A DNA stretch of 64,000 nucleotides from an uncultured Flavobacteriaceae bacterium (GTDB taxonomy: Bacteria; Bacteroidota; Bacteroidia; Flavobacteriales; Flavobacteriaceae), in assembly GCA_905181615.1 (NCBI GenBank), contig CAJIYH010000004.1, positions 1 through 64,000 on the forward strand, read 5' to 3'. The position numbers and the translations under genes are program-made. Positions 1,734-32,942 of this stretch are shown here, piece by piece. Within the stretch, counting starts at the first letter, position 1, and each line of letters begins with the position of its first letter. The notes beneath the pieces were generated by a model. That model made no database searches. It was not told the origin of the DNA and saw only the letters and a list, made by a program, of their open reading frames with translations.

Positions 1734-3617
1734 TTATTTAATTAAGTCAACACTTCGGACAATGAACTGGGTGAGTTCTTCCCCTTTTAGAAGGTTTTGA
1801 GATAATCGAGCCAAATCTAATGTCTGTTGAATTAGCCGTTCTCTCTTCTTTTCGGTTTTTGTGTTTAAAATTTGACTAACAAGCGGGTGGTTGGTGTTAA
1901 CTACCAGGGTGTGCATTTCCGGGAAATTCCCAAACATACTACCTGCACCTCCAGTTTGCTGCATCTCTTTCATTCTTCGCATAAACTCAGGCTGAGTTAA
2001 TACGAAAGGAAGTTGAGAGCTGCTAAGCGCTTCTAATTGAATGGTGTATTTTTCTTTTGGAACTACCGCTTCGATCAAAGGAGTTAGTGTTTCTTTTTCT
2101 TGATCAGATAATTTAGAAACTGTTACTTCATCTTTTTTGATGAGGTTTTCAATTGCATCACCATCTACCCTGGCAAAAGAAAGTTTATCGTTGGCACCTT
2201 CTAGTTTTTGAATCAAGTGAGGGACAATAGGAGAATCTAAGAGCAATACTTGATATCCTTTTTCTTTTGCAGCTTCAATATAGGAGTGTTGCTCGTCTTG
2301 ATTTGAAGCATAAAGAATAACGAGTTTATCGTCTTTGTCTGTTTGTAAATCTTTGACAGCTTCTTTAAGTTCATCGAAAGTAAAGTAATTTCCGTCTACT
2401 GTTGGGTAAAGAGCAAATTTGTCAGACTTTTCAAAGAACTTATCTTCAGAAAGCATTCCATATTCTATAACAACTTTAATATCATTCCACTTTTGCTCAA
2501 AAGCAGCTCTATCTTTCTTGAAAAGACTGGCTAGTTTATCAGCAACTTTTCGAGTAATGTAATTGCTTATTTTTTTGACAGCACCATCTGCTTGAAGGTA
2601 ACTTCTAGAAACGTTAAGAGGAATGTCTGGAGAATCAATTACTCCACGTAACATGGTTAAAAATTCCGGCACAATTCCTTCTACATTATCCGTTACAAAT
2701 ACTTGGTTTTGGTACAGTTGAATTCGGTCTTTCTGAATACTGAGGTCGTTACTCAGCTTTGGAAAGTATAAAATCCCGGTTAAGTTAAACGGGTAGTCTA
2801 CATTTAAGTGGATATTAAACAAGGGTTCTTCAAACTGCATTGGGTACAATTCACGATAAAATGAATTGTAATCGTCTTCTTTTAAATCTGCAGGAAGTTG
2901 TGTCCATGCAGGATTTGGATTATTGACAATATTGTCAACGGTTACTTTTTCAGCTTCTGTACCTTCGACAGCTCCTTCTGGAATAGGAAGACTTTCTTCT
3001 TTTGTTCCGAACTTAATTGCAACAGGCATGAACTTATTGTACTTGGTAAGTAATTCTGTTATTTTAGAATTTTCTAAAAATTCAACAGAATCTTCAGCGA
3101 TGTGAAGAATGATTTCAGTTCCACGTTCTGTTTTGTCATGGGGGACTAAAGTGAATTCTGGTGAACCGTCACAACTCCAATGAGCAGCAGGTTCGTCTTT
3201 AAATGATTTAGTAATCAATTCTACTTTCTCGGCAACCATAAAGGCAGAATAGAACCCTAAACCAAAATGTCCGATTATACCACTATCTGCAGCGCTGTCT
3301 TTGTATTGTTCCAAAAATTCTTCGGCACCAGAAAAGGCAACTTGATTGATGTATTTTTCAACTTCTTCCGAAGTCATTCCAATTCCTTGGTCAATGATAT
3401 GAAGCGTTTTGTTCTCCTTATCTAACTTAATTTCAATTATCGGATCTCCAACTTCTCCGGTCGGCTCTCCTAAATTGCTTAGATGCTTTAGTTTAAGAGT
3501 TGCATCGGTTGCATTGGATATTAATTCACGTAAAAATATTTCGTGATCACTGTATAAAAATTTCTTGATGAGTGGGAATATATTCTCAACAGAAACATTG
3601 ATTTTACCTTTTGACAT
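1734..3617 (-). CDS. htpG: Chaperone protein HtpG (Hsp90)
   Basis: Bacterial Hsp90, an ATP-dependent cytosolic chaperone that remodels late-folding client proteins as a homodimer. The 627-residue length matches the usual 620-630. The N-terminal GHKL ATPase is clear: ELISNATDA (Mg-coordinating Asn near residue 35), IIDQGIGMT (DxGxG ATP-binding motif near 94-100) and GHFGLGFYSAF (ATP lid). The middle domain has the conserved catalytic-loop stretch NVSRSYLQ, and the C-terminal third is the dimerisation domain. It is a single-gene unit with its own promoter and terminator. Its upstream region shares a long motif with the hsp20 gene of this window (see the element at 3642-3683), so I infer heat-shock control. 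Nothing looks truncated. Confidence 0.98.
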   Translation of the reverse strand: MSKGKINVSVENIFPLIKKFLYSDHEIFLRELISNATDATLKLKHLSNLGEPTGEVGDPIIEIKLDKENKTLHIIDQGIGMTSEEVEKYINQVAFSGAEEFLEQYKDSAADSGIIGHFGLGFYSAFMVAEKVELITKSFKDEPAAHWSCDGSPEFTLVPHDKTERGTEIILHIAEDSVEFLENSKITELLTKYNKFMPVAIKFGTKEESLPIPEGAVEGTEAEKVTVDNIVNNPNPAWTQLPADLKEDDYNSFYRELYPMQFEEPLFNIHLNVDYPFNLTGILYFPKLSNDLSIQKDRIQLYQNQVFVTDNVEGIVPEFLTMLRGVIDSPDIPLNVSRSYLQADGAVKKISNYITRKVADKLASLFKKDRAAFEQKWNDIKVVIEYGMLSEDKFFEKSDKFALYPTVDGNYFTFDELKEAVKDLQTDKDDKLVILYASNQDEQHSYIEAAKEKGYQVLLLDSPIVPHLIQKLEGANDKLSFARVDGDAIENLIKKDEVTVSKLSDQEKETLTPLIEAVVPKEKYTIQLEALSSSQLPFVLTQPEFMRRMKEMQQTGGAGSMFGNFPEMHTLVVNTNHPLVSQILNTKTEKKRERLIQQTLDLARLSQNLLKGEELTQFIVRSVDLIK

Positions 3618-3641
3618 AATTATAATTTTTAAAAACTACTG

Positions 3642-3683
3642 TTCAAAAAAAATACCACAATGCTTACGCTGACAAATTGACAT
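3642..3683 (-). promoter_or_regulatory. Candidate heat-shock promoter element upstream of htpG
   Basis: On the minus strand, TGTCAATTTGTC is followed by 12 nt and then GTGGTATTTTTTTTGAA, ending 24 nt before the htpG ATG. The hsp20 gene has TGACATTATGTC, again 12 nt, then GTGGTATTTTATTTGAA. The TTTG inside ATTTGTC and the TATTTTTT are 18 nt apart, which matches -33/-7 spacing, so the element overlays the core promoter. Shared sequence and spacing are seen directly; a heat-shock role is inferred from the two genes it precedes. Confidence 0.65.
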
Positions 3684-3725
3684 TTTATTTTGTTTAATTT
3701 TTAATCAAAAAAGATAAACATATTG

Positions 3726-3733
3726 TATTTTTG
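3726..3733 (+). promoter_or_regulatory. Bacteroidota -7 box of the TetR-like gene
   Basis: TATTTTTG matches TAnnTTTG exactly and lies 18 nt before the ATG at 3752. No convincing TTTG is at the right distance upstream, so only the -7 part is supported. Confidence 0.55.
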
Positions 3734-3751
3734 CTGTAAATATATGATATT

Positions 3752-4402
3752 ATGGCTGCAACGAAAACTTCAAAATCCCCTGAAATCCTATCTATTTTCA
3801 TGGATAGTGTATTGGAACATGAAAAATTTCCACTCTCGGTTTACAAGTTTTGTAAGACGAATGAAATTGACGAGCAAGATTTTTATAAATCCTACGCATC
3901 TTTAGACACCATAAAATACCATGTTTGGCAGGTTTTTTTCGATAATACAATGGGTTTGTTACATAAAAACAAGCAATATGATTCTATGGACAGAAAGGAT
4001 CGTTTACTTACATTCTATTTTACTTTTTTTGAAGTCCTTTTATTGAACCGTAGTTATGTTTTATTTGCCCTTGAGGGGAATGAAAGCCGAATGACTAAAA
4101 TTGGACAGTTAAAAAAATTAAGAATTAGTTTTAAAAGCTTCGCTTCTGAATTGATAGAAGAAGGTAACGACAACAAAACGTTAAGCCTTGCTAAGCATCC
4201 CGTTGGATTGTTTTCTGAAGCATCTTGGGCTCAGTTACTTTTTTTTCTTAAATTTTGGTTAGATGATACCTCTCCAAATTTTGAAAAAACGGATGCCGCA
4301 ATAGAGAAGTCAATTAATGTCGCTTTTGATGTTTTTGATAACACGCAATTGGACGCAATATTTGATTTAGGTAAGTTTTTATGGAAAGAAAAATTCATTT
4401 AA
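3752..4402 (+). CDS. TetR-family transcriptional regulator-like protein
   Basis: A 216-residue, largely helical protein. The first about 60 residues fit a TetR-type three-helix DNA-binding domain: a helix with SPEILSIFMDSVLEHEKFPL, a helix-turn-helix-like LSVYKFCKTNEIDEQDFYK, then YASLDTIKYHVW, which resembles the Y/F-hF-x-x-K-x-x-L region. The rest is an all-helical ligand or partner domain with many aromatic residues. The HTH is divergent, and Bacteroidota proteins of this kind are usually annotated only by the TetR C-terminal domain. It is followed after 4 bp by an ABC1 kinase gene, so the two are almost certainly co-transcribed and probably act together. The start at 3752 has a TAnnTTTG box 18 nt upstream. 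The overlapping track ORF at 3723 is out of frame and rejected. Confidence 0.7.
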   Translation: MAATKTSKSPEILSIFMDSVLEHEKFPLSVYKFCKTNEIDEQDFYKSYASLDTIKYHVWQVFFDNTMGLLHKNKQYDSMDRKDRLLTFYFTFFEVLLLNRSYVLFALEGNESRMTKIGQLKKLRISFKSFASELIEEGNDNKTLSLAKHPVGLFSEASWAQLLFFLKFWLDDTSPNFEKTDAAIEKSINVAFDVFDNTQLDAIFDLGKFLWKEKFI

Positions 4403-31216: not shown

Positions 31217-32410
31217 ATGAATTTACACGAATATCAAGGGAAAGAGATTTTAGCTAGTTTTGGTGTTGCAATCCAACGCGGTATTGTTGCTCAAACTGTT
31301 GAAGAAGCTGTATCTGCTGCAAAAGCCTTAACCGAAGAAACTGGAACAGGATGGCACGTCATAAAAGCACAAATTCATGCTGGTGGACGTGGTAAAGGTG
31401 GTGGTGTTAAGTTAGCTAAGAATCTTAGTGAAGTTTCTTCTATTGCAGGTCATATTATAGGGATGCAATTAATTACACCTCAAACTCCTCCCCAAGGGAA
31501 GCCAGTTCATCAGGTTTTGATTTGTGAAGACGTTTATTATCCTGGTGAAACAGAAACTAGTGAATTCTATGTTTCGGTTTTATTAAATCGTGCAACAGGA
31601 AGGAACATGATCATGTATTCTACTGAAGGTGGAATGGATATAGAAACTGTAGCTGAAGAAACACCTCATTTGATTTTCACAGAAGAAATTGACCCGGGTA
31701 CAGGTATGATACCTTTTCAGGCACGTAAAGTAGCTTTTAATTTAGGTTTAAGTGGACATGCCTTTAAGGAGATGACTAAATTCATTACCGCACTATATAC
31801 TGCTTATGTAGAATCAGATTCTTCTTTATTTGAAATTAATCCTGTTTTAAAAACATCCGATAATAAAATTTTAGCTGTTGATGCTAAAGTGTCTATTGAC
31901 GACAATGCCTTATTCAGACATAAAGATTACTTAGCTCTTCGAGATATTCGAGAAGAAAATCAGATAGAAGTTGAAGCTGGAGAGATTGGTCTTAACTATG
32001 TTGATCTTGACGGTAATGTTGGCTGTATGGTTAACGGAGCTGGATTGGCAATGGCAACTATGGATTTGATTAAGCAGGCGGGAGGAGACCCTGCTAACTT
32101 TTTAGATGTTGGCGGTACAGCAGATGCTGCTCGTGTAGAAATGGCATTTCGTTTAATATTGAAAGATCCAAATGTAAAAGCAATTCTAGTTAATATTTTT
32201 GGAGGTATAGTTCGTTGTGATCGTGTAGCTCAAGGTATTGTAGATGCATATAAGAACCTTGGAGATGCTATTAATGTTCCAATTATCGTTCGTTTGCAAG
32301 GTACTAATGCGGATATTGCGAAGGAATTAATTGATAGTTCAGGCTTGAATGTTTTATCTGCTACAGCTTTTCAGGAAGCTGCTGATAAAGTACAGGAGGC
32401 TATAGGATAG
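31217..32410 (+). CDS. sucC: Succinyl-CoA ligase (ADP-forming) beta subunit
   Basis: The TCA-cycle enzyme subunit that, with SucD, interconverts succinyl-CoA and succinate while making ATP or GTP. The ATP-grasp domain begins MNLHEYQGKEILASFGV and has IKAQIHAGGRGKGGGVKLAK (nucleotide binding) and EINPVL (metal site). The C-terminal CoA-ligase domain has MVNGAGLAMATMDLIKQAGG and NIFGGIVRCDRVAQGIV. The length of 397 is standard. sucD is not next to it, unlike in E. coli; the downstream gene is hsp20. Separate location of sucC and sucD is known in Flavobacteriia. Confidence 0.97.
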   Translation: MNLHEYQGKEILASFGVAIQRGIVAQTVEEAVSAAKALTEETGTGWHVIKAQIHAGGRGKGGGVKLAKNLSEVSSIAGHIIGMQLITPQTPPQGKPVHQVLICEDVYYPGETETSEFYVSVLLNRATGRNMIMYSTEGGMDIETVAEETPHLIFTEEIDPGTGMIPFQARKVAFNLGLSGHAFKEMTKFITALYTAYVESDSSLFEINPVLKTSDNKILAVDAKVSIDDNALFRHKDYLALRDIREENQIEVEAGEIGLNYVDLDGNVGCMVNGAGLAMATMDLIKQAGGDPANFLDVGGTADAARVEMAFRLILKDPNVKAILVNIFGGIVRCDRVAQGIVDAYKNLGDAINVPIIVRLQGTNADIAKELIDSSGLNVLSATAFQEAADKVQEAIG

Positions 32411-32441
32411 GACATACTGTCAGTATTTAACTCACTTTTAA

Positions 32442-32482
32442 TGACATTATGTCTTATTTTTTAAAGTGGTATTTTATTTGAA
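32442..32482 (+). promoter_or_regulatory. Candidate heat-shock promoter element upstream of hsp20
   Basis: TGACATTATGTC, 12 nt, GTGGTATTTTATTTGAA, ending 37 nt before the ATG. The htpG element has the same two blocks at the same spacing, with one mismatch in the 17-base right block and three in the 12-base left block. GACAT-T-ATGTC is itself palindromic here. The heat-shock role is inferred from gene identity. Confidence 0.65.
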
Positions 32483-32519
32483 TGAATCAGTTCAAGTATT
32501 AACCTTTAAAAAATAAGAT

Positions 32520-32942
32520 ATGAATTTAATTAAAAGTAATTTTCAATCAACCCCTTCGGTTTTTGATCAACTGATTTATAAACAACTTACACGTCACAAT
32601 CTTCCGGAAGTTAAACAGCCTGCTGTTAATATATCAGAAGATGATCTTCAGTTTATAATTGAATTTGCTGTTCCTGGTAGGGCTAAGACTGATTTTATTA
32701 TTGAAGCTAAGGATGATGTTTTGTCCGTTAGTCTTGAAACTGAGCATTCAGATTCCGATGTTACCAACTTATATTACAAAAAGGAATTTGATTACACATC
32801 ATTTCAGAGAAATTTTAATTTACCAGATAGTGTTGCAACTGATAAAATAAAAGCGGCTTATAAAGAGGGTGTTTTGAAATTAACATTACCTAAAAAAGAG
32901 GAAAGTTTACCACAGCCTAAAAAGCTGATTACCGTCAAGTAA
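32520..32942 (+). CDS. Hsp20/alpha-crystallin small heat-shock protein
   Basis: A 140-residue ATP-independent holdase that binds unfolding proteins in large oligomers. The alpha-crystallin domain spans about 33-125, with VNISEDDLQFIIEFAVPGRAK, FIIEAKDDVLSVSLE, the RxFxLP-like FQRNFNLPDSV and IKAAYKEGVLKLTLPK, the hallmark A-x-x-x-n-G-V-L. A short C-terminal tail (KKLITVK) contains the I/L-x-I/V-like anchoring motif. It shares an upstream element with htpG. A strong bidirectional terminator follows. Confidence 0.96.
   Translation: MNLIKSNFQSTPSVFDQLIYKQLTRHNLPEVKQPAVNISEDDLQFIIEFAVPGRAKTDFIIEAKDDVLSVSLETEHSDSDVTNLYYKKEFDYTSFQRNFNLPDSVATDKIKAAYKEGVLKLTLPKKEESLPQPKKLITVK

Follow-up and report, generated by a model that had tools for sequence, protein, structure and literature searches.

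Predicted sigma-54 promoters with an upstream TGnCA palindrome at chaperone genes of an uncultured Flavobacteriaceae bacterium, and a candidate enhancer-binding protein

Introduction

Which promoter and which regulator serve the heat-shock chaperone genes htpG and hsp20 of an uncultured Flavobacteriaceae bacterium? Both genes lie in the window that we analysed, i.e. the first 64,000 nucleotides of one contig. An initial annotation reported that they share a two-part upstream element with a fixed spacing. It read this element as a stress-specific variant of the usual promoter, with a −33/−7 core, an added GTGG block and a TGTC box, and knew of no described element of this form. Here we ask what the two blocks of the element are, where else they occur and which protein might act on them.

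The element shared by htpG and hsp20

The shared element is present as annotated. The htpG site (minus strand, 3682..3642) reads TGTCAATTTGTCA-GCGTAAGCATTG-TGGTATTTTTTTTGAA and the hsp20 site (plus strand, 32442..32482) reads TGACATTATGTCT-TATTTTTTAAAG-TGGTATTTTATTTGAA. The distances from the right-hand 17-mer to the ATG (24 nt for htpG, 37 nt for hsp20) were also correct, and profile matches confirmed the gene names HSP90/HtpG and HSP20 (Table 1). Allowing up to three mismatches, we found the full pattern at these two sites and nowhere else in the window, compared to no match in 100 shuffles. A chance likeness of two AT-rich promoters would fit the observation that the 17-mer alone, at three mismatches, is just mildly enriched; against the empty shuffles and the retention of the pattern in 79 of 79 htpG promoters, we consider its probability negligible. 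Perfect copies of the 17-mer GTGGTATTTTNTTTGAA number exactly two in the whole genome (2.19 Mb), and the window holds both. We thus regard the stress-associated shared element with fixed spacing as real.

Among the named loci returned, the closest htpG is 97% identical and comes from a Candidatus Arcticimaribacter genome. Between htpG and a divergent TetR-type gene (3752-4402) we also observed a GTTTA...TAAAC inverted repeat (3685-3745), which recurs in related htpG loci and is perhaps the operator of the TetR-like gene.

Table 1. Positions of the genes, predicted promoters and boxes, and of the candidate activator EBP2 (C6, in the same genome)
Feature	Sequence	Position	Strand	Basis and remarks
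htpG (HSP90 chaperone)		1734..3617	−	Pfam PF00183 and NCBIfam NF003555 HtpG, above cut-off
Predicted sigma-54 −24/−12 promoter of htpG	GTGGTATTTTTTTTGAA	3642..3658	−	conservation over 80 loci; −25/−24 GG at 3656-3655, −13/−12 GA at 3644-3643
Box of htpG (TGnCA-N3-TGnCA palindrome)	TGTCAATTTGTCA	3670..3682	−	8/8 match; centre ~−45
Distal box of hsp20	GGACATACTGTCA	32410..32422	+	7/8 match; 44 nt before TGG, centre ~−77
Proximal box of hsp20	TGACATTATGTCT	32442..32454	+	7/8 match; 12 nt before TGG, centre ~−45
Predicted sigma-54 −24/−12 promoter of hsp20	GTGGTATTTTATTTGAA	32466..32482	+	−25/−24 GG at 32468-32469
hsp20 (small heat-shock protein, 140 aa)		32520..32942	+	PF00011, E 4.6e-18
EBP2 (421 aa)		C6:231366-232628		AAA+ from the N-terminus, GAFTGA, long linker, Fis-type HTH

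The right-hand block has the form of a sigma-54 promoter

To judge from its conservation, the right-hand block GTGGTATTTTWTTTGAA is a sigma-54 (RpoN) −24/−12 promoter of the form GG-N10-G[A/C] and no sigma-A −33/−7 promoter. This assignment rests on the distance of 10 nt between GG and G[A/C], and on htpG orthologues that carry the classical sigma-54 form TTGGCATTTTTGTTGCC at the orthologous place. The consensus of the block upstream of 80 related htpG genes is [N]TGG[T/C]A[T/C]TTTTTTTTG[A/C/T]C. In the main class, TGG and G are invariant at 55 of 55 htpG sites, with 10 nt from GG to G, and every promoter that we aligned has the GG-N10-G[A/C] geometry. The genome has one copy of rpoN (PF04552 match, E 2.9e-50). 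From the usual distance between a sigma-54 element and its start, ~12 nt after TTG[A/C], transcription is predicted to begin near 3631 for htpG (leader ~14 nt) and near 32493 for hsp20 (leader ~27 nt).

The initial annotation had placed TATTTT at −7 and TTTG/TATG at −33, and indeed TATTTT and TTTG look like parts of the flavobacterial sigma-A motif TAnnTTTG. A sigma-A stress promoter to which a GTGG block and a TGTC box were added is nevertheless very unlikely, as conservation tracks GG-N10-G: at the htpG promoter it is TGG..A and TTG, with a T-rich filling, that are conserved and not TAnnTTTG, and several orthologues have TGGCA for TGGTA. Furthermore, starts of the same genes have been mapped to sigma-54 promoters in Flavobacterium psychrophilum, according to the main text of that study (PMC9723704). 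The placement at −33/−7 is thus refuted; GTGG...TTTG corresponds to the −24/−12 element, and the GTGG block, taken for an addition, is its −24 box.

That sigma-54 controls flavobacterial chaperones is not new; two papers from 2021 and 2025 already report it. In F. psychrophilum, 5'-end RNA-Seq linked the starts of groESL, lon, dnaK, grpE-dnaJ, htpG and clpB with a sigma-54 motif; as conditions of induction, the main text names blood agar, osmotic stress and plasma, without mention of heat (PMC9723704). A comparative study finds the chaperone cluster GroEL/GroES/DnaK/DnaJ/GrpE/IbpA sigma-54-enriched in Bacteroidota, with the highest value in Flavobacteriia (PMC12316311). The statement that no such element had been described therefore does not hold for the promoter, which is known in F. 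psychrophilum and predicted by the comparative study; it holds for the left-hand block, of which we found no description in the literature texts consulted.

The left-hand block is a palindrome at a fixed position

The left-hand block TGNCANTNTGTC is a palindrome, TGnCA-N3-TGnCA, with its centre near −45. The TGTC box of the initial annotation was a real element, but it is better described by this palindrome, of which the annotated left block is one half; in htpG, the palindrome also takes in the A that follows TGTC. The htpG box is the sole 8/8 match within the window.

To avoid circularity, promoter sets were drawn by gene family and not by motif: the −24/−12 element was picked blind to the box, and the box was measured afterwards. 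The box precedes the −24 TGG by 11-13 nt in 79 of 79 htpG promoters, 22 of 25 grpE promoters (one per family of the class) and 11 of 12 hsp20 promoters, and is missing from this proximal place in the remaining three grpE promoters and one hsp20 promoter. The background density of the box, at a match of at least 7/8, is 0.03 per 100 nt (447,000 positions around htpG).

Other chaperone genes show different layouts. Most groES promoters have a half-site alone at the proximal place, and among 37 of them the box is found at N11-13 in 6, at N32-34 in 15, at N42-44 in 11 and at N61-65 in 5. For hsp20, a second box at N43-44 is present in 9 of 12 promoters; these include the promoter in the window, whose distal box, absent from the initial annotation, is 32 bp (three helical turns) further upstream than the proximal one. 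Copies at N44 were also found for clpB. The secondary boxes are phased at 10.5 bp (Rayleigh p ~6e-5, 20 distinct gene-spacing pairs), a p-value to be taken as a guide only, the sequences being related by descent.

The distal groES box is, in this genus, part of a terminator-like hairpin after secG. The secG-groES region of our genome (L147, 7740-7830), like loci L182, L184 and L186-L194, has a hairpin that holds a full box 32-33 nt before the groES −24, and in other genera the secG-groES box is one turn further, on the opposite hairpin arm. The genome under study (G000) lacks a true ClpB; its ClpB-like match (C2:555382-557862) appears to be of the ClpC type and is present in all relatives.

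The lon gene has a strong, near-consensus −24/−12 element ~100 nt before its start codon (loci L303-L321). We had considered lon as a sigma-54 negative control without a box, and dropped it when boxes were found downstream of the element, in the leader and at the gene start, in 16 of 17 loci. Codon conservation may explain one of the two lon boxes, which falls at the beginning of the coding sequence (D-x-L-S).

Distribution across genomes

The element is found at further chaperone genes, i.e. at dnaK and grpE, and in the variant layouts described above at groES, clpB and lon; it is seldom found away from chaperone genes. With up to three mismatches, the combined pattern of box and promoter has five matches in this genome compared to none for the reversed control: dnaK, htpG, hsp20, grpE and a weak one, with three mismatches, in the promoter of the miaB-EBP2 operon described below. 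The 21 relatives have 57 matches, the reversed control 7. In 148 genomes of the phylum, searched at no more than one mismatch, the control gave one match. The matches that were read out lie upstream of htpG, dnaK, grpE, hsp20, trxA and clpB, two are at miaB-EBP2, and three fall outside the class and have no clear target. For trxA (thioredoxin), box and sigma-54 promoter were observed in three genomes of other families (L244, L245, L246).

The same arrangement of box and promoter thus is, as far as sequence comparison goes, a recurrent feature of chaperone genes across the class Bacteroidia. The combined pattern is concentrated in the class that also has the EBP2 relatives, a co-occurrence that is confounded by descent (one clade).

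A candidate protein for the box

The palindrome and its phased distal or downstream copies make the box a candidate upstream activating site of a sigma-54 enhancer-binding protein (EBP), for which the main position at −45 is atypical. We found two genuine sigma-54 activators in the genome. EBP1 has a receiver domain and a GAFTSA loop, and its gene adjoins grpE-dnaJ. It was ruled out as a binder of the box by its lack of an HTH and its atypical loop. EBP1 (here L146, 5648-6811) is conserved across the genus; its loop is GAFTSA or GSFTSA, and it lacks a DNA-binding domain.

EBP2 is the only sigma-54 activator of this genome that has a DNA-binding domain. It consists of an AAA+ sigma-54 interaction domain (PF00158, E 1.3e-66), without an N-terminal sensor domain, and a C-terminal HTH (PF02954, residues 377-413). 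A structure model of modest quality (mean pLDDT 69), used for the domain order alone, shows helices at 373-412. The GAFTGA loop reads GSFTGA in one orthologue, and the recognition helix SERTLYRKIK is invariant across 13 orthologues. Full-length relatives with at least 54% identity were found in genomes of the same class, and a match in G056 reaches only residue 309.

The gene order miaB-EBP2-lptE-TPR-secG-groES-groEL is shared by this genome and G018; in G014, G017 and G019 we read miaB-EBP2-lptE-TPR, then groES. EBP2 is the only strong EBP match in G019, where the one pattern match precedes a gene not identified as a chaperone. G134 has a single match to the EBP2 query and carries the combined pattern at htpG. 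Larger genomes have several EBPs.

The strongest link between EBP2 and the box is the presence of the box at the promoter of its own operon. We found a box upstream of miaB in 41 of 41 genomes examined, compared to 2.9 expected from shuffles. In 37 of the 41, a sigma-A-type TAnnTTTG follows 8-20 nt after the box, and a −24/−12 element was found at this operon promoter in none of them. Self-repression of the operon by EBP2, which we consider probable, would be expected to show just this layout, a box across the apparent sigma-A promoter.

The same layout would also be expected for a repressor site, and the main site at −45 borders the polymerase, closer than is the norm for an EBP. We therefore considered that the promoters are of the sigma-54 type while a different factor sits on the box: a repressor that keeps them off without stress, with EBP2 or another EBP acting from elsewhere or from solution. 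We judge this improbable. The helix-stepped distal copies of groES, hsp20 and clpB and the downstream copies of lon better fit a tethered activator, the box in the operon of EBP2 suggests EBP2 as the binder, and a non-systematic look at the neighbourhoods brought up no shared repressor gene adjoining these genes.

Proposed mechanism

The best explanation, and one that we hold with considerable confidence, is that these are sigma-54 heat-shock promoters whose box is bound by EBP2 acting as an activator. RNA polymerase carrying RpoN would lie on the −24/−12 element (TGG[T/C]A-N8-TTG[A/C]) as a closed complex. A dimer or higher assembly of EBP2 would bind the palindrome just upstream, with its centre at ~−45, and its AAA+ GAFTGA loop would open the complex at the chaperone promoters. 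A proximal box that is weak or missing (groES, clpB) or in need of help (hsp20) would be supported or replaced by extra boxes, which lie on the same DNA face at a distance of 2, 3 or 5 helical turns upstream. The box over the sigma-A promoter would damp the synthesis of EBP2. Given that EBP2 lacks a sensor domain at its N-terminus, a partner probably governs its activity; the simplest candidate is a chaperone, which would hold it inactive and release it as unfolded protein builds up. This release signal is a guess; the hold may be at the conserved linker helix (281-308). The regulon in this genome would comprise htpG, hsp20, dnaK, grpE-dnaJ and groES-groEL, with lon as a probable further member.

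Sequence comparison gives strong evidence for the promoter class, the box, its spacing and phasing, and the gene set, and it supports the autoregulatory box, the domain make-up of EBP2 and the synteny. From autoregulation, synteny and elimination we infer that EBP2 would bind the box; that it activates rather than represses is likewise our inference. More tentative, and in our estimate slightly more doubtful than probable, is the full proposal of EBP2 as master regulator of Bacteroidia heat shock: restrained by a chaperone through its linker, docked at −45 without a long loop, and repressing itself.

Comparison to known systems

PspF, the phage shock activator, is an EBP without an N-terminal regulatory domain that represses itself and serves a stress regulon. 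EBP2 resembles it in the missing domain and in the proposed self-repression and stress regulon. It does not belong to the PspF family (269.9 bits compared to the curated TIGR02974 cut-off of 443.55), and it differs in its long conserved helical linker and in its proposed targets, which are cytosolic chaperones. NtrC at glnA is similarly an EBP with a C-terminal Fis-type HTH, and its palindromes stand in tandem ahead of a sigma-54 promoter. Between the two strong sites of glnA there are about three helical turns, as between the hsp20 boxes described here. The sites of glnA are 90-140 bp upstream, and according to a review NtrC needs its site no closer than 70 bp to the start (PMC7408454), whereas the main site predicted here is at −45, with a spacing fixed within 1 nt. 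Such a position would be unusual for an enhancer and conflicts with that statement. Either EBP2 acts at short range, or the proximal box contributes in another way and the classical work falls to the distal or downstream copies.

In other phyla, the same target genes are controlled by sigma-32 (RpoH) and by HrcA/CIRCE. The main text on F. psychrophilum lists only sigma-A, sigma-54 and ECF sigma factors (PMC9723704). HrcA/CIRCE control was rejected, as exact CIRCE (TTAGCACTC-N9-GAGTGCTAA) has no match in 429 loci.

The closest system is that of F. psychrophilum, whose SM4 sigma-54 promoters are of the same class and serve the same genes (htpG, dnaK, grpE-dnaJ, groESL, clpB and lon; PMC9723704, 2021). 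Unlike our analysis, the main text of that paper gives no enhancer motif, and it reports three PF00158 proteins with none assigned as activator; the consulted part of the comparative sigma-54 regulon study similarly assigns neither an upstream activating site nor an activator (PMC12316311). The B. thetaiotaomicron modulome paper does not mention RpoN, DnaK or GroEL. Within the literature texts that we consulted, we found no description of the TGnCA box, its helical phasing, its −45 position or its link to EBP2.

Conclusion

In the consulted literature texts, we found no assignment of the activator and the DNA signal of flavobacterial sigma-54 chaperone control. With a box of 13 bp and a single syntenic candidate gene, control of the folding-stress response becomes directly testable throughout the Bacteroidia, a class to which dominant bacteria of the gut and the sea belong. 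Furthermore, an enhancer that is fixed at −45, and phased when it is moved, bears on the question of how near an enhancer-binding protein can act.
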